Shown here piece by piece: positions 3,241-59,645 of a stretch of 64,000 nt of DNA. The DNA is from Panorpa germanica (lineage: Eukaryota > Arthropoda > Insecta > Mecoptera > Panorpidae). Below the pieces are notes generated by a model. It was not told the origin of the DNA. It saw nothing but the letters and a program-made list of their open reading frames with translations, and made no database searches. The stretch covers positions 5,890,001 through 5,954,000 of the forward strand of contig OY783219.1 of NCBI GenBank assembly GCA_963678705.1, written 5' to 3'. Position 1 is the stretch's first letter; every line of letters begins with the position of its first letter. The translations under genes were made by a program, and so were the position numbers.

Positions 3241-3722
3241 TCTTATATCTAATTGACTTCTATTTTAACGTGTTAAGGCTGTACCCCTTAAATAGACAAA
3301 AAATTGAGAATCAGAGGAATATAACATATAGGACACGGCTAGAGGAGTGAAGAATACCATCGAATCAATATCAGAGCCCATAAAGCTATCAGTGGCAGAC
3401 GGCGGTGGTGGCGGTGATCGGCAGGCTGGTAAATCTAGTGTGGCGTTCGAAATAGTAAAATCTACAGACCGTCCGATATCATGAGAGAAAAATTATGTGT
3501 AATAAATATTGTTTTTTTGTTTAAAAAAGTGCATTTCCATCAACAACAGAGAATAAATGGGAAAATATTGTATAAAAGACAGAATAAGTTATATACGTTT
3601 GTTAGGAATAGGGTGAGGTGGGGAAAGGGGAGAGGAGGGAGGTAAATGTAGGTGAAGCCATTAACATTAATCAAGTCGGAGTTTAAAATGATAAATCATT
3701 GTGAATCAAATCGTGGTGTACG
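3241..3722. other. No gene; G-rich stretch
   Basis: Contains a purine/G-rich run at about 3,610-3,642 with several GGG blocks. Otherwise featureless. Confidence 0.5.
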
Positions 3723-12944: not shown

Positions 12945-13523
12945 TATGAAATTTATCTATATTATTGTACAACATATTAAGTTTATTGTGTGAAAATTTG
13001 AAGTCGATTGGAGTAAAACTGTCGGAGATATAGAGTTTTAAGTCTTCACCTCTCTGGTTTGCTTTCGTGTTACTTTGAAACTTTTAAATGCGGTTTCTCA
13101 CACATAGCTTTTTCAGAGTCGGGGCCATCTCTAGCTCAGAATCAACTGCACCGATTCTTTTGAAATTTTGCACACTCTTTCTTTACATAAATGCCGAGGT
13201 AACGCTGTCGAGTTTTTTTAATTTTTTAATTTTAACGTATTTTAAAATAACAAAGTTTCTGACTTTTTTCATGAAAAATCGGAATTTTGACTTTTAAGTG
13301 CTGTAAAAGATTGAAAAACCTATAAAAAAAGAAAAACTCGACAGCGTTACCTGCAGAAACTTATCAACTAATGAAATCATTTTGGTTTTTCGATTTCAGA
13401 AAATCCAGTGATGAGTTATGAGTGGCACCGCAATGTTACTTTTTTGTGATGTCAGCGGAGATTCACTGTCAAGTGTCGTCAAAAACATTATTGAAAATAT
13501 GCTTCTTTCTTATCGTTTTGACC
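12945..13523 (-). repeat. Family A repeat, copy 1 (reverse orientation)
   Basis: Reverse-oriented copy of a repeat of about 650 bp seen six times here. It runs from 'attgtacaacatattaag' to the reproducible terminus 'atcgttttgacc' at 13,523. It carries the central hairpin at 13,197-13,352: 'aggtaacgctgtcgagtttt' faces its exact complement ending at 13,352. Relative to the 43.6- and 59-kb copies it lacks about 100 bp between 'cactgtcaa' and 'gtgtcgtc'. The class is unknown. Confidence 0.8.
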
Positions 13524-18430: not shown

Positions 18431-19854
18431 CTCTGCTATATGTATTTATATGTCAAAATATCAAATATTATTTACAGCTATTTTAAGGAACAATCAAATT
18501 TCAATATTATGTCTGCCTTAGCAATGTTAAATAAAATAAAAACTTATTATTCTTTGATTTGACTTGATTATTTGACTACCAACAGCTACAAAACATTACC
18601 ACAGCACTGACATACTCAACAAATAACTAACGTTAAAATGCATTTCACGTCATACAAATATAGCCGACTATTCCTAGCGCTGAAACTACAATTCAAACTT
18701 TTATTTGTTATATCTCCGTCAACATTTAGATATTTAATAAAATAAAGGTTAAAACAGTGTAATGTGTTGTAACTAAATAACATTTAAAATTCTCATAATG
18801 ATAAATAAAATATACATTACATATTTTATTAAAAATAATAAATAAAAGTATTATTATTCAAGTTAAAATATTACATTTGCATATTACATCTATGTAGATG
18901 AAAAATAAGATAATCGTTAATTTAAAAATGGAATTTAAATTTGACATGAAATTCAAGCCGCACACAGAAGACAGACGTCGCTTGGGACCGGGGTAAAAGC
19001 TAGTTCGCTTATAAAGTAATACAAAATGTATCTTTACAAGTAAATAACAATATCTACAAAATGAAATCGATCTAACCAAATTTCAAGTCCAAGAACGTAC
19101 AAATCGTCGGTTAAAAAACCTATCATCCCTTGTAGAAACCATCACGTACAGGTTATAGGGGCAATTACGACACCTGAATATCTACGGATGCTGGTTGAAT
19201 GCTTGTGCTGTCCCAAAGGTATGTTCGGTGGTGCCACCTACAACTACATGATACATACAGACCAGAGACGGTGTGGGTAACCGCTACGGAGAATGGACGA
19301 ACCACGTATGGAATGATAACAGTTATCTTAACTAATAGATAGATCCCGGGATGCTGGTGCCTGGACCGTGGACCGTGGACTCTGGACTCAGGGTGGGATC
19401 AAGGCAATGAATATAATTAGTATGAATGGTTGCTTTTTGCGAAATATGTAAATTTTACGTAGGTTGGGTCATTTGAGTTTATTTATATCGTAATTCCACT
19501 TTATATAGAAATCGTGATGCTGTTGGAATAGATACCGCTTCAAAATAACTATAAACGAGATATCTTCCTTCTGCAGAGCATCATACTATTTGATTAGAAT
19601 AGAAATATTTTAAACTGGCTTGGAAATATGAATTTAAATTTGCCGCCATTTTTGTTGTTGTGGTTCTTTGAAGTTATAATAGGATTTTTAATCCTAATTT
19701 TATAGCATATAAAATTCTATATTATAATGTTCCAAGTGAGAGTTTTTATAAAGAAACACTGTTACGGTAAATTGTCACGGTAAAAAAGGTACCGTTGCGG
19801 TAAAAAAACATTTATTCTTAGAGAATACTTGTTTCTAAATCAAGCACATTGTAA
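18431..19854. other. No gene; short minisatellite at 19,361-19,392
   Basis: GC content rises at 19,080-19,400, where 'ggaccgtggaccgtggac' forms a short tandem array. The rest is AT-rich. No coding frame has family resemblance. Confidence 0.45.
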
Positions 19855-20217
19855 TCAAAATCAGAATCAAAAGTAATCATTGCAAAACTCCAGCTCACCT
19901 GTACAAAATTAATATTAAATCTGACGATAGATGTCAATGTGGTGAAGAAGGAACTTTGGATCATATTATATTTGAATGCATAAATTATAGTTTAGAAAGA
20001 TCAAAATAGAATAGTGATATATTAGATGTGATTAAAACTTTTCCTGTTGATACTAAATTTTTGTTAAGTGATTCAAAGTTAATTAGTGAATTATTGAAAT
20101 ATTTAGACATTTGTAAAATTGAATTATAAATTATAAAAGATGTATAAAAAATGTTTGATGGTGGCTATGACGAAAGAAAGTCAAGGCAAATAAGTAAATA
20201 AATATAAAAAAAAAAAA
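19855..20217 (+). pseudogene. LINE-A relative, 5'-truncated ORF2 C-terminus and 3' tail
   Basis: The plus-strand translation from about 19,870 gives 'HCKTPAHLYKINIK' and then 'CQCGEEGTLDHIIFEC'. This is the same C-X-C-X7-H-X4-C knuckle with the same spacing as ORF2 of the intact element (residues 1179-1194). After the coding end come a short 3' UTR and the tail 'aaataagtaaataaat' followed by a run of A, matching the tail layout of the full-length element. An in-frame stop near 20,008 and many substitutions mark it as an old insertion from a related subfamily. Confidence 0.85.
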
Positions 20218-23656: not shown

Positions 23657-24317
23657 CAACAAACCTAAGACCCTTGTTATTCATTAACAAGTTTAAACAA
23701 CAAAAATATAAACAACGAAACGATGAAATTCATTCCTTAAAGAGATTTAAGGGGAAAGTCATTTCAAACCCTTCTCAATTTCAACCCCAGAATCCTTTAA
23801 TTACTACAGAACAACAATCCCGCCTCTGGTGGTCATATATTGTACTAACTGGTCACAAACAATAAACATCATATAACTTTATATAGTATTCTATCTCACT
23901 CTGGTCCAGTTAGTCTTCACTGTTCATGGTCACACCATTGTAAACATTGGGCAAACTATTTCAGTGATAATTCTAAAGTTTAGTGGTTTCAAGTGTGACC
24001 AACTTAGTCTAAACAAATACATTAGTCAAGATTATATTTGTGTGTGTGTGTGTATGTTGGTGGTGATATGTGAGGGGGGGGGGGTTAAATAACGTGTAAA
24101 TATAGGGGCAAACAAATCTAAAATGTTGTTTTGATATCGAGACTACAAAGCAATCAAATTAGGATTTAGGTTTTAGTTGTGGAAAATAGCAGATAATAGG
24201 ATTTGGATACTTAGATTGTAAATTAAATAAACCCAGAAAAAACCTAACCGTCTTTATTTGATATACGAGATAAAATACTTTTTATGTATATGTTTATATA
24301 TTTGGACAAATCAATAA
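23657..24317. other. No gene; (TG)n and poly-G
   Basis: A (TG)n run at about 24,038-24,053 and an 11-bp G run near 24,074 lie close together. Otherwise unremarkable. Confidence 0.55.
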
Positions 24318-25400
24318 GAAAAAGCAAATTTTCGATAATGTTTTTTGACAACAAAGTTAATATATAATTATTTCTATAATTACTACATGATAAAATGACA
24401 TTTAAAGAATATTTTGTGAAATTTCATAAATAAATATCAAGAAATGAGGCATTGACAGCGAATCTCCGCAGACGTCACAAAAAAAGTAACATTGCGGTGC
24501 CACTCATAATGTTCAGTATTGCATTGATAGAAGCAAAACCTTTGTTACGCAGTTTATATAGATTCAATTGAACATGGAATATTTAATTTAACTGTGTTTA
24601 CATCACATTCAATTATTTAAATATTTTATTGTTATATAGAACCTTCTCCGCCTAAGAGAAAGGAATTTTTGTTATATTGTTGTCTTCTTCCTTTGTACAT
24701 TGTACGTTGGATTAAATTTAGATTTTTTGTTAGTTTTAGTGTTAAGATATAGTTCTAAGATAGTAGTTGTAATTATAAGTTCGTTCTTTAAAGGTTTAAA
24801 TATATGGTAAACAGCTTACATCCGTTATTTTATTCACTTATAAATCCCTACACCCCGATAGCGATTTATAGAATAAAATATAAATAATTAAAATACATAA
24901 TAAATTTCGCGCTCGATTAATTTCTTACGCGAACGTCCCTTATAAAAAGCTAAAGGTTTTTTATAAAACTTAACACATAACTCATCACTGGATTTTCTGA
25001 AATCGAAAAACCAAAATGATTTCATTAGTTGATAAATTTCTGCAGATAACGCTGTCGAGTTTTACATTATACATTACATATACATTTTACAAAATATCGA
25101 TTTTTCATGAAGAAAATCAAAAATTATGTCCTTTAAAAATACGTTTAAATTAAATAAAAAACTCGACAGCGTTACTTCGGCATTTAAGTAAAGAAAGAGT
25201 GTGCAAAATTTCATAAGAATCGGTGCAGTAGATTTTGAGCTAGAGACGACACTGACTCTTAAAAAGCTATGTGTGAGAAGCCGCATTTAAAAGTTTCTAT
25301 CTCCGACAGTGTTACTCCAATTGACTTCAAATTTTTACACAATAAACCTAATATGTTGTACAATAATATAAATAACTTAAAAATAATTTTAAAAAAAATT
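24318..25400 (+). repeat. Family A repeat, copy 2, split by a solo LTR
   Basis: The left half (24,318-24,509) and the right half (24,976-25,400) are collinear with the copies at 43.6 and 59 kb. The break lies inside 'ccactcataactcatcac' and is filled by the LTR. The central hairpin is at 25,044-25,176 with a shortened middle. Confidence 0.85.
24510..24975. mobile_element. Solo LTR of an LTR retrotransposon (466 bp)
   Basis: It starts 'tgttcag' and ends 'cttaaca', giving the TG...CA ends (here TGTT...AACA) of LTRs. The exact 5-bp direct repeat 'cataa' flanks it at 24,505-24,509 and 24,976-24,980. It interrupts a family A repeat at a point where the other copies are continuous, so the ends are fixed by comparison. 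AATAAA-like and TATAA-like words occur inside. There is no internal coding region, so this is a solo LTR left by recombination between the two LTRs of a full element. The superfamily is not certain; a 5-bp duplication is common in Bel-Pao and also seen in Gypsy and Copia. Confidence 0.88.
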
Positions 25401-36798: not shown

Positions 36799-37365
36799 GG
36801 TCAAAACGATAAAAAAAAACATATTTTCGATAATGTTTTTCGACGACACAGTTAAAATTGAATTTTTTCTATAATCACTACATGATAAAATAACACTTAA
36901 AGAATACTTTGTGCAATTTTTATAGTCCGCTGACGTCACAAAAAAAGTTACATAGCGGTGCTCCTCATAACTTATCACTGGATTTTCAAAAATCGAGAAA
37001 CCAAAATGATTTCATTAGTTGATAAGTTTCTGCAGGTAACGCTGTCGATTTTTTTTATTTATGTTGATTTTTCAATTTATTACAGCAATTAGAAGTGAAA
37101 ATACCGATTTTTCATCAAACTTTGTTGTTTTAAAATACCTTAAATTTTTTCAAAAAAAAAGTCTACTGCGTTACTTCGGCGTTTATGTAAAGAAAGAGTG
37201 TGCAAAAGTTTAAAAGGATCGGTGCAGTACATTTTACGTTAAAGAGCTCTGAAAAAGCTATGTGTGAGAAAAACGCGTTTAAACCGATAGTTTTACTCTA
37301 ATCATTTTCAAATTTGCATACAATAAACTTAATATGTTGTACATTGATATAAATAAATTTAAAAA
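36799..37365 (+). repeat. Family A repeat, copy 3
   Basis: Starts at the reproducible terminus 'ggtcaaaacgat'. The central hairpin (37,034-37,175) has decayed. Parts of both arms are deleted relative to the 43.6-kb copy. Confidence 0.8.
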
Positions 37366-40935: not shown

Positions 40936-41101
40936 TTCTTATTGTTCTTGTCTCTAGTATTTCTAAAAAAATATTAGGTATCGATTTCAAAGAGGAATTC
41001 AGACCTCAAATTTACTTCTATACTTCTTCAATAATTAAATTATTTAAAATTATAAAATTGTTTTTTTTGGAGTATTTAAATTATGTAAATATCGAGTACA
41101 T

Positions 41102-41733
41102 GTGCATGTTAATTTCACCAACAAAAGGACTAATTACATTCCGGTACTAATAAATGACCAAGCTATTCCGTATGCGAATACAGCAAAGTATCTAGGAATG
41201 ACTTTAGATGCCAAATTTCGTTGGAAGGCTCACGTAAAGAAAAGGAGGGATGAACTGGGAATAAGATATAAGAAAATACATAACAAGCTAATGCTGTATA
41301 AGCAAATATTGAAACCAGTTTGGACATATGGGGCTGTACTAAGAAATGCAACATCATATGCGTTCAGACTTTCCAAAATAAAGTTCTGAGGAACATAGTG
41401 AATGCACCATGGTCTGTCCGCAATAGCGATGTACATAGGGATCTCAAAGTAACTACAGTAGCTGAAGAAATTACGAAAATTGCAAGAAAGCACGAGCAAC
41501 GTCTCCAACACCATATCAACGTGGAAGCGGACACGGATGGACTGACAAGAAGATTAAAGAGAACTAAGCCATTTGAGCTAGTATGATGACCGACAGAAAA
41601 AGAGTATTAACAATGGTTAATACTCTGACTTCAAAAATATTACCATTATTAAAATTAACTAGAAAAAATGTTATTAGATAGTTTATATAAATTAGTTATA
41701 TCAATATAATGGGTATAATAAAAATATTTGTAA
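41102..41733 (+). pseudogene. Jockey-type LINE ORF2 C-terminal half with frameshift, plus 3' UTR
   Basis: The first frame (41,102-41,340) encodes 'AIPYANTAKYLGMTLDAKFR', then 'KLMLYKQILKPVWTYG', the block following the YADD reverse transcriptase core. The second frame continues from 'WGCTKKCNI' through 'FQNKVLRNIVNAPWSVRNSD' and 'HRDLKVTTVAEEITKIARKH' to the stop at about 41,586. Comparison with the jockey pattern 'WTYG.QLWGC' indicates a small deletion at the join that removed about four codons and shifted the frame. A 3' UTR with a hairpin and the end motif 'gggtataataaaa' follows. It is non-functional and 5'-truncated. Confidence 0.9.
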
Positions 41734-43649
<1,916 letters not shown>

Positions 43650-44325
43650 GGTCAAAACGATAAAAAAAAATCATATTTTCGATAATGTTTTTTGACGACA
43701 CAGTTAATATATAATTATTTCTATTATTACAACATGATAAAATAATATTTGAAAAATACTTTGTGAAATTTTCATAAATAAATATCAAGAAATGAGGCAT
43801 TGACAGCGAATCTCCGCAGACGTCACAAAAAAAAGTAACATTGCGATGTCACTCATAACTCATCACTGGATTCTCTGAAATCGAAAATCCAAAATGATTT
43901 CATTAGTTAATAAGTTTCTGCAGGTAACGCTGACCAGTTTTTCTTTTTTTATTGATTTTTTAATTTTTTACAGCACTTAAAAGTCAAAATACAGTTTCTT
44001 CATGAAAAAAATCAAAAACTTTGTTATTTTAAAATACGTTAAAAATAAATAATTAAATAAAACTCAACAGCGTTACCTCGGCATTTATGTAAAGAAAAAA
44101 TGTGCAAAATTTCAAAAGAATCGGTCTAGTAGATTTTGAGCTAGAGAAGGCACCGACTCTGAAAAAGCTAAGTGTGAGAAACCGCATTTAAAACTTTCAA
44201 AGAAACACGAAAACAGACCAGAGAGGTGAAGATTTAAAGCTCTATATCTCCGACAGTTTTACTCCAATCGACTTCAATTTTTACACAATAAACTTAATAT
44301 GTTGTACAACAATATAAATAAGTAA
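43650..44325 (+). repeat. Family A repeat, copy 4 (near full length)
   Basis: Runs from 'ggtcaaaacgataaaaaaaa' to 'gttgtacaacaatataaata'. The central hairpin is at 43,922-44,078. This and the 59-kb copy define the family's length of about 650-680 bp. The minus-strand frame seen in other copies is broken here by a Trp-to-stop change and an extra T. Confidence 0.85.
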
Positions 44326-50520: not shown

Positions 50521-50590
50521 TCAAGCCTCATTCCCACTCACCGTTTTGATATTTAATTTACTGTTTTTATTTAATATTACAGTCTGAGTT
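50521..50590. mobile_element. Family M element, left-end fragment
   Basis: 'caagcctcattcccactcac' and the following 45 bp match the end of family M, then stop abruptly where family A sequence begins. Confidence 0.75.
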
Positions 50591-50975
50591 TCTTTTTTAT
50601 TTTAACATATTTTAAAAGATTTTCATGAAAAATCGGTATTTTGACATCTAAGTGCTGTAAAAAATTGAAAAATCAATAAAAAAAAGAAAAACTCAACAGT
50701 GTTACCTGCAGAAACTTATCAACTAATGAAATCATTTTGGTTTTTCGATTTCAGAAAATCCAGTGATGAGTTATGAGTGGCACCGCAATGTTACTTTTTT
50801 TTGTGACGTCTGCGGAGATTCGCTGTCAATGCATCATTTCTTGATATTTATTTATAAAAATTTCACCAAGTATTCTTCAAACTTCATTTCATCATGTAGT
50901 AATTATAGAAATAGTTATATATTAACTGTGTCGTCAAAAAACATTATCGAAAATGTGCTTTTTTTTATCGTTTTT
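50591..50975 (-). repeat. Family A repeat, copy 5 (truncated)
   Basis: Reverse orientation. It begins inside the central hairpin region and runs to the 'atcgtttt' terminus. It keeps an open frame at 50,763-50,960 ('SYEWHRNVTFFCDVCGDSL...') that is also open in the 59-kb copy. Confidence 0.8.
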
Positions 50976-53150: not shown

Positions 53151-53223
53151 ACAACAGAGCGTAGGAGAAATAGCATATTTAACACAGAATTCTTATACAT
53201 ATAATATATATAAAATAGATTGT

Positions 53224-53257
53224 CAGTTGACATCGAGTCTTCTTGGTGAGCGCACGT
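53224..53257 (+). promoter_or_regulatory. Internal promoter: initiator plus DPE-like element at the LINE 5' end
   Basis: The first bases form TCAGTT (53,223-53,228), an exact fit to the arthropod initiator TCAKTY. Counting its A (53,225) as +1, GCACGT lies at +28 to +33 (53,252-53,257), four of five bases matching the DPE consensus RGWYV and at the spacing known for TATA-less insect LINE promoters. The start predicted from the promoter agrees, to the base, with the border set by the target-site duplication. Confidence 0.75.
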
Positions 53258-53427
53258 ATTTACAATAAACAAAACAATAAAATAAATAGTTATCTTTTTT
53301 TTTGCAAATTATAATATTTTTTTTTTCGTGATTTATTTTTTTTTAAATAATAATTTATATTATTATTAAGTGTTATTAATTAGAAGTGAAGTAACTTCTA
53401 TTTAATTATCACTGGTTAATTAACAAT

Positions 53428-54855
53428 ATGGATATGGAGGTTGAACCTCCCGATAAAAATCCGATCAATAAAAACAACTCTGTGACTAACAAATCAATTC
53501 CTACAGATAAAACATCCAGTGATATAACAGAAAACTTAAATAACAATAGTGACAATGTTAAAAAAATATTTAATAATTTATACAACACAGAAACAAAATA
53601 TGACTCGTATAAAGTAATGATAGTTAAAAATAATAGTGATGGAAATACATTTTTTAGTTCTCTTAAATTAGCAGAAATAATATGTAAAATTAGCAATAAA
53701 TCTAATATAATAGAAATTAAAAAAGTGGGAAGAAATAGAGTAATCGTTCAATGTGCTAATGCAGTACTAGCTAACGAAATTACCAAATCAACATTGCTGA
53801 AAAACAATGGGTATGAAGCGTTTATCCCATTTTACTGGTGCACAAAAGTTGCTATTATAAAAGGTGTTGATATTGAATATTCGGAAGATACAATTTTAAA
53901 TAATATAGAGTGTCCACCTTTTAAAGTAACGAGAGTGCAAAGGTTAAATCGAAAACTAAGAGTTGACGGAGCTATTAAATATGAACCCAGTACAACAGTG
54001 AAATTATTCTTTGAAGGACTTGCTATTCCTGCTTATGTTTACATGTGGAGAGTGAGACGAGCATGTGAACCATTTGTACAACAGACGATACAATGTTATA
54101 ATTGTTTTAAATTTGGACATGCAGCCACAAAATGTAGAGCAAAAGTAGCAAAATGTAAATTCTGCGGAAGTGAAGATCATCTACGTACTGCATGCACATC
54201 TCCTAATCCGACATGCATAAATTGTAAACTTAACCACGAGGCTACAGACAATGAATGTCCTGAAAAAAAAAGACAAATCAAGATAAAAGATCTCATGGCC
54301 CAACACAATCTCAGTTTTTATGAAGCAAAATTAGAATTAACAGAAAAAAATACAGACTATTTATACTCAGTAAGAACTCAAAACTCTTTTGAAGCTCTAA
54401 ACTACAATGAGACTTTTCCCAATATCACTAATAAATACAATAGTATCAACATAATTCCAACATACAAACCAAACCCTTTAACCAGAAGAACTAATACCAG
54501 AGTGAATAAATCAAATACAGGTAACTCGTTACAAAGATCTTACAGTCAACCACAACCTACGACATCCACTAAAGAACCAATTCCAAAAAGAAGAAGAGAA
54601 GAAAAGAAACCTAACAATGAAGAAAGCGACACATACCTTAAGATAACTAATCAAGGAAAAAACAGAAAGCAAATCAACCAAGAGACACCTGATATTACAA
54701 TGGAAAACAATGATAATGATACCTGCTATACATCAATATATAATAAAAATAATGATGACAAAATTAAAAATACAAACAAAGACCCAAATATTACATCCCA
54801 ATCCCTTAGAAGCTACAAGAAACAAATATCTAGTGTACAATGGCCAAACTCGTAA
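53428..54855 (+). CDS. LINE-A ORF1 protein (Gag-like RNA-binding, three zinc knuckles)
   Basis: The 475-aa protein would bind the element's RNA and form the ribonucleoprotein that carries it to the nucleus. Three zinc knuckles follow one another: 'CYNCFKFGHAATKC' (residues 223-236), 'CKFCGSEDHLRTAC' (243-256) and 'CINCKLNHEATDNEC' (263-277; a C-X2-C-X3-H-X6-C variant). Before them, residues 115-222 carry the conserved region ending in basic 'MWRVRRACEPFV', typical of jockey-superfamily ORF1. The N-terminus is polar and Asn-rich. After the knuckles comes a low-complexity Asn/Thr/Lys region with 'PKRRREEKK' (386-394), a possible nuclear localisation signal. The start is the first ATG after the 204-bp leader; the next in-frame ATG is two codons on. 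No frameshift or internal stop is present. Confidence 0.95.
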   Translation: MDMEVEPPDKNPINKNNSVTNKSIPTDKTSSDITENLNNNSDNVKKIFNNLYNTETKYDSYKVMIVKNNSDGNTFFSSLKLAEIICKISNKSNIIEIKKVGRNRVIVQCANAVLANEITKSTLLKNNGYEAFIPFYWCTKVAIIKGVDIEYSEDTILNNIECPPFKVTRVQRLNRKLRVDGAIKYEPSTTVKLFFEGLAIPAYVYMWRVRRACEPFVQQTIQCYNCFKFGHAATKCRAKVAKCKFCGSEDHLRTACTSPNPTCINCKLNHEATDNECPEKKRQIKIKDLMAQHNLSFYEAKLELTEKNTDYLYSVRTQNSFEALNYNETFPNITNKYNSINIIPTYKPNPLTRRTNTRVNKSNTGNSLQRSYSQPQPTTSTKEPIPKRRREEKKPNNEESDTYLKITNQGKNRKQINQETPDITMENNDNDTCYTSIYNKNNDDKIKNTNKDPNITSQSLRSYKKQISSVQWPNS

Positions 54856-55061
54856 GAAAACATCGATATATAAATTAAGTTTATTTTTAAAAAAATCTAT
54901 TCACATCACTAAACCTAATCGTTTAATAAATTTACTAAAATATTAAATCAACAATAATTATATAAACGGAGAGAAAATAAAATAAAATAAAATATATAAA
55001 TAAATCTAACAACAAGACCAAGGACAGATATAAAAATCAATAATTAATTAAAACAGTTAAA
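54856..55061 (+). other. Spacer between LINE-A ORF1 and ORF2
   Basis: 206 bp, A-rich, with many stops in the ORF2 frame. ORF2 therefore does not overlap ORF1, and its translation must rely on reinitiation or another internal mechanism. A 78-codon frame overlapping the end of ORF1 (54,710-54,946) has no domain and is not annotated. Confidence 0.7.
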
Positions 55062-58000
55062 ATGATAAATTTTATTCAATGGAATTGCAGAGGAGTCAGA
55101 TATATTAAAGAGGAACTACAACATATGTTACAGAAGCATAACATACATATATGCATACTATCAGAAACGTTTTTAACAAAAAATATCAATTTCAACATCA
55201 AAGGTTATTTTATTGAAAGAGAAGATAGGATACAGAATACAAACTATAATCCCCACGGGGGTGTTGCTATCTTGATTCATAAATCTATAAAATATAAACG
55301 AGTAATGCTAAATAACCCATTTAATTCGGTCGAAATAGTTGGAATAATTTTAACACATAACGAAACTGATGTAATATGTATTTTATCAATCTATGCTAAA
55401 CCGAATCATAAACTATCTAATTCTAATTGGTCACAGATAAAACAACAAATAGATGTTCCTGTTATACTTGCTGGAGATTTTAACGCGACTAATCTTGCTT
55501 GGGATATAAATTGTCCAGGTAGTCAGTATGAAGGTAACGAATTGTTAGATTTCATAGAAAACGAAAATCTAAATATTATCAACGATGATAAACCAACTAG
55601 AGTAAGCAATCTCAGTACAAGGGACAGTATATTGGATCTCACATTGGTATCAATGACGTTAACACAACAAATTACTTCGTGGCAAGTTCTTGCAGATAGC
55701 TTAGGTAGTGATCACTACCCAATTTTTTTCTGTTTGAATGACTATAATAAAGACCGTTACCGTACATCTGAATATTTAACGAGGAGAAATTTCCGAAAAG
55801 CAGATTGGGAGAAATATAGCCTTGAAATAGAAAGCAGAATTTCAAACCTTAGCACAAATGGAATCACAAGTAATCCCCAAGATGTTGAAAACAAATACAA
55901 CCAATTTAGAGATGTTATTAATAATTCGGCAGACATACATATCCCATCTACCAGATTGTATAATATAACTCCTAATAAAATAAAACCGTCTTGGTGGGAC
56001 ACTGAGTGCAATAAAATGATAGCTCAAAGAAAATTAGCACTAACTATTTTTAATAAAAACATGACAATGGCGAATTATTTAAATTATAAAAAACATCAAG
56101 CTAAAACCAGACGATATTTTAGAGCCAGAAAAAAAATAGAATGGCAAAATTTCTGCGAGAATTTAAACCCAAACACAACAACCAACATTGTCTGGAATAA
56201 TATAAGAAAAATTAACAATAAAAGCTATAGTACTAAAAGGATAAGTGATAATGAAAATTTAATAGAAGAATTCATTAAAAAAAAATTTCCACAGAACAAC
56301 AATTTAAATATTACTACCACCACCATCGTAAAAGATAATTTTCTAGATAATAACATAAATAAAAATGAAGTAAAATTCGCGTTAAATCATAATAAAAACA
56401 GTAGCACAGGATTTGATAGAATAAATTACAAAATGATACAAAACTTACCTGACAATGCAATAAATCATCTTACACAAATATACAATCTGTCATTAAACAC
56501 TGCTGATATACCATTAGACTGGAAAAAACATATCGTTGTTCCTATATTAAAAACAGGAAAAGATCCAAACAAAGAAGAATCATTCAGACCAATTACTTTA
56601 CTATCATGTATGGGCAAAACTATGGAATCCATCATTAAAAACAGACTGGAGTGGTATCTCGAACATCATAAAAGATTACCTGAGTTACAATTTGCGTTTA
56701 GAAAAACAAGAAGTACACAGCATAACTTAAACATATTAAATATCGATATTCAAAGAACATACAGTAAAAATCATTATATGATAGCTGCTTTCATTGACAT
56801 TGAAGCTGCTTATGACAATGTTAATCTAAGAATATTAAAAGAAAAAGTAGAAAACATAGGTATATCTTCCAAAATATCCAACTGGATTATAAACTACTTC
56901 CAAAATAGAGAAATAACAGTTAGATACAATAATAAGTTAACTGGTCCTATACTATGTAATCACGGAATTCCACAAGGCTCAATATTATCTCCCTTATTAT
57001 TCAACATATACACAGAAAAGTTAACAACATTATCAGATAACAACACAACAGTACTGATGTATGCAGATGACATGGTTATTTATAGTATGGGTCATACACA
57101 AGATATAGCTCAAAACAGATTACAATCGAAATTAAGAAAACTAGATATTTTATTAAAGGAAATCAAATTAAATATATCGTCAGAAAAAAGTAAAATAGTT
57201 ATATTTACAAGGCATAGAATAAACTGCAGTCCAAAAATAACCATCAGAAATAAAAATATAACTGTTACTTCAAATACCAAATTTCTGGGTATATTCTTTG
57301 ATACGAAAAGCACTTGGGCGAAAGAAATTGCACATATTATTAACAAATGTCAAAAAGGCTTAAATTTGATGCGATGTATAGCAGGATACAAATGGGGCGC
57401 ACACCCAACAACCTTAATAAAAATATATAAAGCTATTGTTAGACCGCATATTGACTATTCTAGTACTATGATCTGCACCGCAAATAACTCAAGATTAAAA
57501 AAAATTGAAATTATACAAAACAAATGTTTAAGAATAATATTAGGTGCAATGGTTTCAACACCAATCCAAATCCTCAACTATCAAACTAATATTCCTCCGG
57601 TAAATATCAGAATACAACAAATATCAGACAGTTTCTTTTGTAAAAACAGACATAACTCATGTGGCCCCTTAAATACAAGATTATCTAAACTATATGTTCT
57701 TTATAATAAACCATATTGGACAACTCATAAAAAACCGGCACTTTTAACTAGTTTTGATAGATATAATAACTTGAACTTAGAGGTACACAACATTATACCT
57801 TTTTTCAAATTTCCATTAGAAATAAGCATGACAACAATACATACAGAAATAAATTTGTTCAAGAAGAATGACAGTAAGGAAATAACTTATCAAAAATATA
57901 TGGAATATATAACAAAAGATGATATAAACTGGAGTATATGGTTTACCGATGGTTCATTCGAAAAAAACTCTAAAACTGGAGGAATTGGCATTTTCAATTA

Positions 58001-58790
58001 TAATACAGATCAACAGTACAAATACAAACTTAACAACATCACAAATTCTTATAATACAGAAATAACAGCAATTATGAAATTACTAGAAATAATACAAAAA
58101 ACTGACAATAAAAATATATTAATCTTCACAGATTCTCGTAGTGTTTGTGTATCTTTAAATAACAATAAATTCAAAAACAATAATAATAACAAAATATGTT
58201 CAATTAAAGAATATCTTTTAAAAATGGAAAAAAATGATATCAATGTTAAACTTATTTGGATTCCTGGACATGTAGGCATAAAAGGAAACGAAATGGCTGA
58301 CAAACTGGCCAAAGAAGCTTGTGTAGATGGGGAAATAATCGAAATAAATTGGTCAATAAATGATTCCAAAAAAATAATTAAAGAAAATTGTATGGCAGAA
58401 TGGCAGAATATATATAATGAGAAAAGTCAAAGTACTGGAAAAAATTTTTTTGCAGCGAATCAAAAAATTCCAACAACCACATGGTTTAATAAAAATCATT
58501 CACGGAGATATATTTCAACAAATTGTCGAATGAAATCTGGGCATTCTAGATGTCCAGCTCATCTATACAAAATAAATATAAAAGACACACCAAATTGTAG
58601 ATGTGGAGAAGAAGGGTCTTTGGACCATATAATTCTAGGGTGTCATCTTTTAACATCAAAAATTGATAGACTTTTAAATGATTTATGTAATGTAACACAG
58701 TTCCCAGTCAATATGTCCTGTTTAATGACAAGTGAAGCAACGGCGGAAATATTAACAAACTTTGTGATAGAAAATAATATAGAAGTGTAA
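55062..58790 (+). CDS. LINE-A ORF2 polyprotein: endonuclease, reverse transcriptase, RNase H
   Basis: The 1,242-aa enzyme would nick target DNA and prime cDNA synthesis there. The endonuclease/exonuclease/phosphatase domain spans about residues 1-225: N8 in 'WNCRG', E35 in 'LSETF', D139 in 'AGDFNA' and H218 in 'GSDHYP'. The reverse transcriptase spans about 480-760: D579 in 'AFIDIEAAYD', 'GIPQGSILSPLLFNIY' from 635, and the catalytic 'YADD' at 667-670. The RNase H domain spans about 955-1090 and keeps D963 ('FTDGS'), E1000, D1024 ('FTDSRS'), H1070 ('IPGHVG') and D1080 ('NEMADKLAKEA'). The C-terminus has the knuckle 'CRCGEEGSLDHIILGC' (1179-1194). No stop, frameshift or lost catalytic residue was found. 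The start ATG gives the endonuclease its normal N-terminus. Confidence 0.97.
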   Translation: MINFIQWNCRGVRYIKEELQHMLQKHNIHICILSETFLTKNINFNIKGYFIEREDRIQNTNYNPHGGVAILIHKSIKYKRVMLNNPFNSVEIVGIILTHNETDVICILSIYAKPNHKLSNSNWSQIKQQIDVPVILAGDFNATNLAWDINCPGSQYEGNELLDFIENENLNIINDDKPTRVSNLSTRDSILDLTLVSMTLTQQITSWQVLADSLGSDHYPIFFCLNDYNKDRYRTSEYLTRRNFRKADWEKYSLEIESRISNLSTNGITSNPQDVENKYNQFRDVINNSADIHIPSTRLYNITPNKIKPSWWDTECNKMIAQRKLALTIFNKNMTMANYLNYKKHQAKTRRYFRARKKIEWQNFCENLNPNTTTNIVWNNIRKINNKSYSTKRISDNENLIEEFIKKKFPQNNNLNITTTTIVKDNFLDNNINKNEVKFALNHNKNSSTGFDRINYKMIQNLPDNAINHLTQIYNLSLNTADIPLDWKKHIVVPILKTGKDPNKEESFRPITLLSCMGKTMESIIKNRLEWYLEHHKRLPELQFAFRKTRSTQHNLNILNIDIQRTYSKNHYMIAAFIDIEAAYDNVNLRILKEKVENIGISSKISNWIINYFQNREITVRYNNKLTGPILCNHGIPQGSILSPLLFNIYTEKLTTLSDNNTTVLMYADDMVIYSMGHTQDIAQNRLQSKLRKLDILLKEIKLNISSEKSKIVIFTRHRINCSPKITIRNKNITVTSNTKFLGIFFDTKSTWAKEIAHIINKCQKGLNLMRCIAGYKWGAHPTTLIKIYKAIVRPHIDYSSTMICTANNSRLKKIEIIQNKCLRIILGAMVSTPIQILNYQTNIPPVNIRIQQISDSFFCKNRHNSCGPLNTRLSKLYVLYNKPYWTTHKKPALLTSFDRYNNLNLEVHNIIPFFKFPLEISMTTIHTEINLFKKNDSKEITYQKYMEYITKDDINWSIWFTDGSFEKNSKTGGIGIFNYNTDQQYKYKLNNITNSYNTEITAIMKLLEIIQKTDNKNILIFTDSRSVCVSLNNNKFKNNNNNKICSIKEYLLKMEKNDINVKLIWIPGHVGIKGNEMADKLAKEACVDGEIIEINWSINDSKKIIKENCMAEWQNIYNEKSQSTGKNFFAANQKIPTTTWFNKNHSRRYISTNCRMKSGHSRCPAHLYKINIKDTPNCRCGEEGSLDHIILGCHLLTSKIDRLLNDLCNVTQFPVNMSCLMTSEATAEILTNFVIENNIEV

Positions 58791-58979
58791 TTTAAGTTAA
58801 AATATTTTATTTAGTATGTATTTAATTTTAAGTTTAATTTTTTAAAAGAATCATTTTGTTTTGTATTTATTAGAACAATTATAATTTATATGTAAATTTT
58901 TATATAATTTTACAAATAAAAGCAATGGCAAGAAGGCTGAATAAGCCAAAGCCTAAATAAATAAAAAAAAAAAAAAAAA
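58791..58979 (+). promoter_or_regulatory. LINE-A 3' UTR: poly(A) signal, terminal hairpin and A tail
   Basis: AATAAA lies at 58,915-58,920. Next, 'ggctgaataagcc' (58,936-58,948) can fold into a 4-bp-stem hairpin close to the 3' end, where LINE reverse transcriptases often recognise their RNA. The end is 'aaataaataaa' and A(n). The diverged relative at 20.2 kb shares the tail layout. Confidence 0.8.
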
Positions 58980-58991
58980 AAAATAGATTGT

Positions 58992-59645
58992 TAAGTTATA
59001 AAAAATAAGCATATTTTCGATAACGTTTTTTGACGATACATTTAATATAAAATTATTTCTATAATTACTACATGATAAAATGACATTTGAAGAATACTTT
59101 GTAAAATTTTCATAAATAAATATCAAGAAATGAGGCATTGACAGCGAATCTCCGCTGACGTCACAAAAAAAAGTAACATTGCGGTGCCACTCATAACTTA
59201 TCACTGGATTTTCTGAAATCGAAAAACCAAAATGATTTCATTAGTTGATAAGTTTCTGCAGGTAACCCTGTCAAGATTATCTTTTTTTATTAATTTCTTA
59301 ATTTTTTACAGCACTTAGAAGTTAAAATACTAATTTTTCATGAAAAAAATCAGAAACTTTGTTATTTTAAAATACGTTAAAATTAAAAAATAAAAAGAAA
59401 CTCAACAGAGTTACCTCGGCATTTATGTAAAAAAAGAGTGTGTAAAATTTCAAAAGAATCGGTCCAGTAGATTTTGAACTAGAGAGGTAGAAAGGTATGT
59501 GTGTGAAACCGCATTTAAAAGTTTCAAAGTAACACGAAAGCAAACTTAAAACTCTATATCTCCTACAGTTTTACTCCAATCGACTTCAAATTTTCACACA
59601 ATAAACTTAATATGTTGTACAATAATATACCTCCTCCTTAACGTT
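58992..59645 (+). repeat. Family A repeat, copy 6
   Basis: Its left end, aligned to 'ggtcaaaacgataaaa', abuts the LINE-A insertion. The central hairpin is at 59,260-59,416 with several mismatches. A minus-strand frame of about 68 codons (59,204 to about 59,000) is open and similar to that in copy 5. It stops at 'gttgtacaataatata'. Confidence 0.83.

Follow-up and report, generated by a model that had tools for sequence, protein, structure and literature searches.

The question raised by a 64,000-nucleotide stretch of the Panorpa germanica genome (NCBI GenBank assembly GCA_963678705.1, contig OY783219.1, positions 5,890,001 to 5,954,000 of the forward strand; hereafter the window) is whether the complete long interspersed nuclear element (LINE) that it contains stands alone or in company. 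A preliminary description, made from the letters of the window, had singled this LINE out as the one element likely to be recently or currently active among otherwise broken sequence. When the host assembly (464 Mb in 249 contigs, in which the window is G000:C16:5890001-5954000) is considered, the LINE is very probably a full-length copy, its coding capacity intact, from a family of LINEs with two open reading frames (ORFs), of the I-factor type, that has multiplied recently.

The element occupies positions 53224-58979 of the + strand and comprises a leader, ORF1, a spacer, ORF2, a 3′ untranslated region (UTR) and a poly(A) tail. The coordinates and the two uninterrupted frames given in the preliminary description are correct, and the features are as follows.

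53212..53223, +, left target-site duplication AAAATAGATTGT (8 bp certain, 4 A's ambiguous)
53224..53427, +, 5′ untranslated leader of 204 nt, without an ATG
53428..54855, +, ORF1, 475 amino acids (aa)
54094..54258, +, three CCHC-type zinc-knuckle motifs of ORF1 (motif match)
54856..55061, +, inter-ORF spacer of 206 nt, without an ATG
55062..58790, +, ORF2, 1242 aa
55074..55727, +, APE-type endonuclease domain, ORF2 aa 5-222 (Pfam PF03372/PF14529)
56568..57293, +, reverse transcriptase (RT) domain, ORF2 aa 503-744 (Pfam PF00078; LINE-1 and R2 chains)
57936..58322, +, RNase H domain, ORF2 aa 959-1087 (Pfam PF00075; retroviral RNase H chains)
58596..58643, +, C-terminal Cys-His motif C-x-C-x8-H-x4-C, ORF2 aa 1179-1194 (motif match)
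58791..58963, +, 3′ UTR with the terminal bases CCTAAATAAATA
58964..58983, +, poly(A) run of 20 (the final 4 A's may be target bases)
58980..58991, +, right target-site duplication
58998..59629, +, flanking copy of a dispersed repeat, with the LINE at or just beyond the repeat edge

The ORF2 domains, in the order APE, RT, RNase H and C-terminal Cys-His (Pfam and motif match), were recognised with Pfam values of 1.4e-19 (Exo_endo_phos_2), 1.4e-38 (RVT_1) and 1.1e-21 (RNase_H). Among the best 60 of 125 listed chains of solved structures, those nearest to the RT are of LINE-1 and R2, and those nearest to the RNase H are retroviral. The catalytic residues N8, E35, D139, H218, D579, Y667-D670, D963, E1000, D1024, H1070 and D1080 are present at the positions originally assigned to them. 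The knuckles of ORF1 lie at aa 223-236, 243-256 and 263-277, the third being spaced C-x2-C-x4-H-x6-C (motif match); against Pfam, ORF1 gives no family above cut-off, with zf-CCHC below it at E 0.34. A search for long terminal repeats found none, the longest direct repeat pair (47 nt at 72%) not being terminal. An Rfam scan of the window gave no family at the gathering score, and between 53150 and 59050 the sole match up to E 10 is a sub-threshold SNORD31; thus no HDV-like ribozyme was found in these scans.

Copies of the family in the host genome

The exact 5′ end of the family (34 nt) occurs 358 times in the assembly and the exact 3′ end (36 nt) 323 times, while the reversed patterns used as controls occur 0 times each. 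The family is thereby present in several hundred copies. Near-identical copies, for which the preliminary description had proposed a search, were found with a 901-bp RT probe. It gave 742 first-look candidates; scoring covered 40 of these, and the identity of each was given, after rounding, as 100%. Apart from the window copy itself, 20 of the scored matches were fetched whole with their flanks and 19 as the two junctions only. Full length was found for 18 of the 20; one of the others begins at element position 1855 (L017) and one is rearranged (L013), and both were excluded from the counts, leaving 19 full-length copies including that of the window.

The pairwise p-distance among these 19 copies has a median of 0.296% (range 0.017-1.08%), and both ORFs are open over their full length in 14 of them, a shortened frame being seen in L009, L010, L012, L023 and L026. 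Two further copies, which carry a Helitron (see below), also have both frames open, giving 16 intact copies of 21. The view of the window LINE as intact and recent is therefore upheld by its open frames, its clean duplication and the approximately 99.7% identity of the fetched copies. Its uniqueness holds within the window, but in the genome, with its 358 exact 5′ ends, equal intactness is seen in 13 of the 18 further full-length copies fetched whole. The window copy carries 6 private substitutions with respect to these 18, including K590R in ORF2; residue 1128 of ORF2 is N in the window copy and F or Y elsewhere (two bases, one of them shared with one copy), and its leader starts with CAGTTG where other copies have CAGTTT. 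It is not special among the fetched full-length copies.

The claim that the rest of the window is broken was partly checked: outside the LINE there is no stop-to-stop frame longer than 169 aa, and four other frames scanned against Pfam gave no match above cut-off. A 255-bp fragment at 19842-20096 corresponds to the C-terminus of ORF2 of a related LINE (42% aa identity). A frame at 41048-41389 resembles, by eye, the end of the reverse transcriptase of another LINE, with no Pfam match.

Insertion junctions and completeness of the copies

The 12-bp duplication AAAATAGATTGT is identical at 53212-53223 and 58980-58991, as originally described, and has no further exact match in the window. Its unambiguous part is the 8 bp TAGATTGT, because its first 4 A's belong to the 20-A run at the right end. 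These adjoining A's, together with the 8 occurrences of TAGATTGT in the window where 4.4 are expected, could suggest that the two 12-mers match by chance and that the element is older or otherwise bounded. The match, however, falls exactly at both element ends, and both of these ends are found again in insertions at many other sites; the chance of an 8-base match at one fixed position is about 4e-5 at this base composition. A chance match is accordingly an extremely improbable explanation.

Both junctions were read in 38 copies (the window copy, the 18 fetched whole, the 2 that carry a Helitron and 17 of those fetched as junctions), with a script that tolerated an offset of a few bases at the 5′ edge of the LINE. 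A target-site duplication was found in 37 of the 38, with a median of 13 bp at the longest reading; the two long values (20 and 21) fall in simple repeats, and for L027 the script gave 8 where reading of the junction gave 12. With the A stretch removed, the duplication starts with T in 30 of 37 copies, and a T or C precedes the stretch in 33 of 37 (A being excluded by construction at both positions); the second position of the duplication holds A in 31 of 37. In 8 of the 37 (L026, L033, L037, L041, L045, L047, L055 and L065) an extra CA precedes the CAGTTT start. Its presence in separate insertions could reflect a second copying of the last bases or a start two bases further upstream. In some others, one or two bases at the start of the element are also part of the duplication.

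The most direct view of an insertion is provided by L010, which is nested in another copy of the family. When its flanks are joined minus one 13-bp duplicate, they align to element positions 1211-2602 over 1391 bases at 99.4% (7 mismatches, 1 gap). This is a natural empty site and direct evidence for precise insertion with duplication. The joined flanks of L023 match a repeat at 79-81%, the match extending just 20 bases past the junction. High identity could also arise by gene conversion or segmental duplication in place of recent retrotransposition, and the rearranged state of L013 might be taken in that sense; given that a separate duplication accompanies 37 of 38 copies, that the flanks of near-identical copies differ by eye, and that L010 lies within another copy, we consider this very unlikely.

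At the window locus itself, the empty site that had been proposed as a check was not recovered. With up to 2 mismatches allowed, the joined-site pattern has a single match in the assembly, the occupied site itself, so no empty allele is assembled, which in a single assembly decides nothing. Nor was a paralogous empty site found for this copy, because the right flank is a dispersed repeat and the left flank lies outside it. This dispersed repeat of about 0.6 kb has six copies in the window (12958-13472, 24314-24509, 36809-37283, 43660-44316, 50589-50974 and 58998-59629).

The frequency of 5′ truncation was surveyed on contigs C1-C3, for which the listing gives 92 exact matches to the 5′ end and 76 to the 3′ end. 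An exact 5′ end lies 5.70-5.75 kb from 50 of the 76 3′ ends and 6.2-12.1 kb from another 4, the latter pairs being what may be interrupted copies or chance neighbours; a variant 5′ end is at the right place for 3. The last 19 comprise 13 in which the expected place holds a diverged 5′ end, one (L075) in which it holds internal element sequence and 5 in which it holds none. The five 5′ truncations begin near element positions 3497, 4394, 5069, 5297 and 5698, with a short repeat at both junctions (by eye). A 5′ end is thus found at full-length distance for 66 of the 76 (the interiors were mostly uninspected), and 5 of 76 are truncated. In the other direction, 38 of the 5′ ends have no exact 3′ partner. 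Eight of them were known from earlier stretches, and 20 of the other 30 were examined; 19 of these 20 have a variant 3′ end no more than 160 bases from the expected place. A second type of 3′ end, CCTAAATTAAA, which is 94-98% identical to that of the window copy, was seen in 11 of the 20 (L092, L094, L095, L098, L100, L103-L105 and L109-L111), perhaps marking an older or parallel subfamily.

The proposed course of events can be outlined as follows. RNA polymerase II would start at the first bases of the element itself, and ORF1 would be translated first, with ORF2 reached through re-initiation past the ATG-free spacer. The absence of ATG from leader and spacer would fit such scanning and re-initiation, an ATG-free leader being obtained in 2% of shuffles that keep base composition. 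ORF2 would nick the bottom strand of an A/T-rich target whose top strand reads pyrimidine, zero or more A, then TA; reverse transcription would be primed from the poly(A) end, usually as far as the 5′ end, and a second, staggered nick would produce a duplication of mostly 11-16 bp. A more specific idea, which we offer tentatively and think improbable as it stands, is that the family integrates almost only complete copies, in that a step at the 5′ end of the RNA may be needed for attachment of the second strand, incomplete cDNAs being rejected and not ending up as truncated insertions. The precise start of the copies, sometimes with the extra CA, may be the trace of such a step.

Two copies, L067 and L068 (G000:C1, near 6,819,000 and 6,352,100), contain a Helitron in the leader, inserted at the same base after GAGCGCACGTA (element nt 35), that is, about 35 bases downstream of the presumed transcript start. 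The Helitrons have a 5′ TC and a 3′ CTAG, and L068, the one that was scanned, retains a remnant of a Pif1 2B domain. Their 5′ and 3′ parts are about 97% alike while their middles are not common to the two, suggesting that one site was hit twice, independently. The 3′ junction pattern has exact matches in L067 and L068 only. A LINE carrying a Helitron as a single mobile unit was considered and rejected, the two Helitrons being different derivatives; the two LINE bodies, with 13 differences in 5674 sites, do not group together, which also counts against a composite unit.

Age and present state of the family

Private substitutions number 0 to 11 per copy over about 5.74 kb in 18 copies (L012 excluded). 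Under an insect mutation rate near 3e-9 per site per generation, the ages would be of the order of 1e5 generations. Some of the insertions look very young, since 7 of the 18 carry 0-2 private substitutions, six of these 0-1.

Variants common to at least 2 of the 18 copies comprise 8 nonsynonymous and 10 synonymous changes (p 0.013 against the expectation), while the private variants comprise 30 nonsynonymous changes, 18 synonymous changes and 3 stops (p 0.10). The expected nonsynonymous share is about 73%, with transitions weighted fourfold by the analyst's choice, and the p-values are rough because related copies are not independent. The difference between shared and private variants fits a coding source lineage that leaves behind drifting copies.

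Several observations weigh against a simple recent expansion of intact elements. Near-identity does not extend to all of the several hundred copies: some of those with an exact 3′ end have 5′ ends only 82-97% identical, and copies with an exact 5′ end and no exact 3′ partner have 3′ ends 92-99% identical. The figures for identity and intactness are biased towards the youngest copies, because these were picked among the 40 scored matches nearest to the RT of the window copy. The private variants are not clearly off the neutral ratio, the script found no duplication for L012, and an ATG-free spacer is obtained in 10% of composition shuffles. Since some copies of the family have diverged 5′ or 3′ ends, the burst is the latest layer of a longer history.

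The ratio of the private changes, and the fact that 5 of the 19 sampled full-length copies are already disrupted, would also be explained if the family had been active recently and were now silenced, each copy, including that of the window, being a fresh fossil. This is possible though rather doubtful, as the copies with 0-2 private substitutions in 5.7 kb speak against it. A recently multiplied family, of which some members may be active at present, is the reading we favour.

Comparison with known LINEs

As in other LINEs, ORF2 encodes an APE endonuclease and an RT, long terminal repeats are absent, and the copies have poly(A) and duplications of variable length. The domain order of ORF2 and the three Cys-His motifs of ORF1 (motif match) are those of the I-factor type, and the window LINE files, by architecture only, as an I-group LINE. 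Jockey elements typically lack RNase H, and human LINE-1 is not known to have an RNase H domain in ORF2 or CCHC knuckles in ORF1. The jockey and L1 clades are disfavoured because RNase_H (PF00075, 1.1e-21) is present in ORF2, and the knuckles of ORF1 likewise differ from the L1 clade. Relatives of the LINE were sought in viral and prokaryote contig collections, and none were found there.

The closest likeness is to the I factor of Drosophila melanogaster, which is described as having an ORF1 with three Cys-His motifs and an ORF2 with APE, RT, RNase H and a C-terminal Cys-His domain (PMC2881922). Both ORFs thus have the same architecture as in the window LINE, likened by description and not by sequence. 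The 3′ end of the I factor consists of tandem UAA repeats, according to a title in the reference list of the same paper; the family copies examined differ, ending in CCTAAATAAATA or a variant followed by poly(A), without tandem TAA repeats.

Rare truncation is not unprecedented, since Juan-A and Hebe have been published with many full-length copies or no truncation. For Juan-A of Aedes aegypti, 957 5′ ends and 180 3′ ends are reported at 99% (PMC1947958). The excess of 5′ over 3′ ends at high stringency is shared with the present family. Juan-A offers a precedent for the dynamics of the family, although it belongs to the jockey clade and the window LINE has RNase H. Hebe of Adineta vaga, also of the jockey clade, is described as having three CCHC knuckles, no 5′ truncation found, and a short leader of 220 bp that starts with an initiator-like motif (PMC2861651). 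The (near) absence of 5′ truncation, the three knuckles and the short leader are all likenesses. Hebe is, however, subtelomeric, its 15 sequenced copies decaying by deletions (same source), whereas the copies of the present family number in the hundreds and are spread over several contigs, 5 of the 76 examined being truncated.

Human LINE-1 resembles the window LINE in its poly(A) tail and target-site duplications, and the RT of the latter aligns to LINE-1 ORF2p chains. It differs in its lack of RNase H, as noted above. It differs also in completeness, most copies not being full length: about 7,000 of 500,000 are (PMC2881922). The window LINE is otherwise ordinary, and its most useful features are the rarity of truncation in its family and the natural empty site. 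With a large natural sample of recent, mostly complete insertions in a single genome, with readable ends, duplications and one empty site, the family would help in studying why some LINEs are rarely 5′-truncated while most human L1 copies are.

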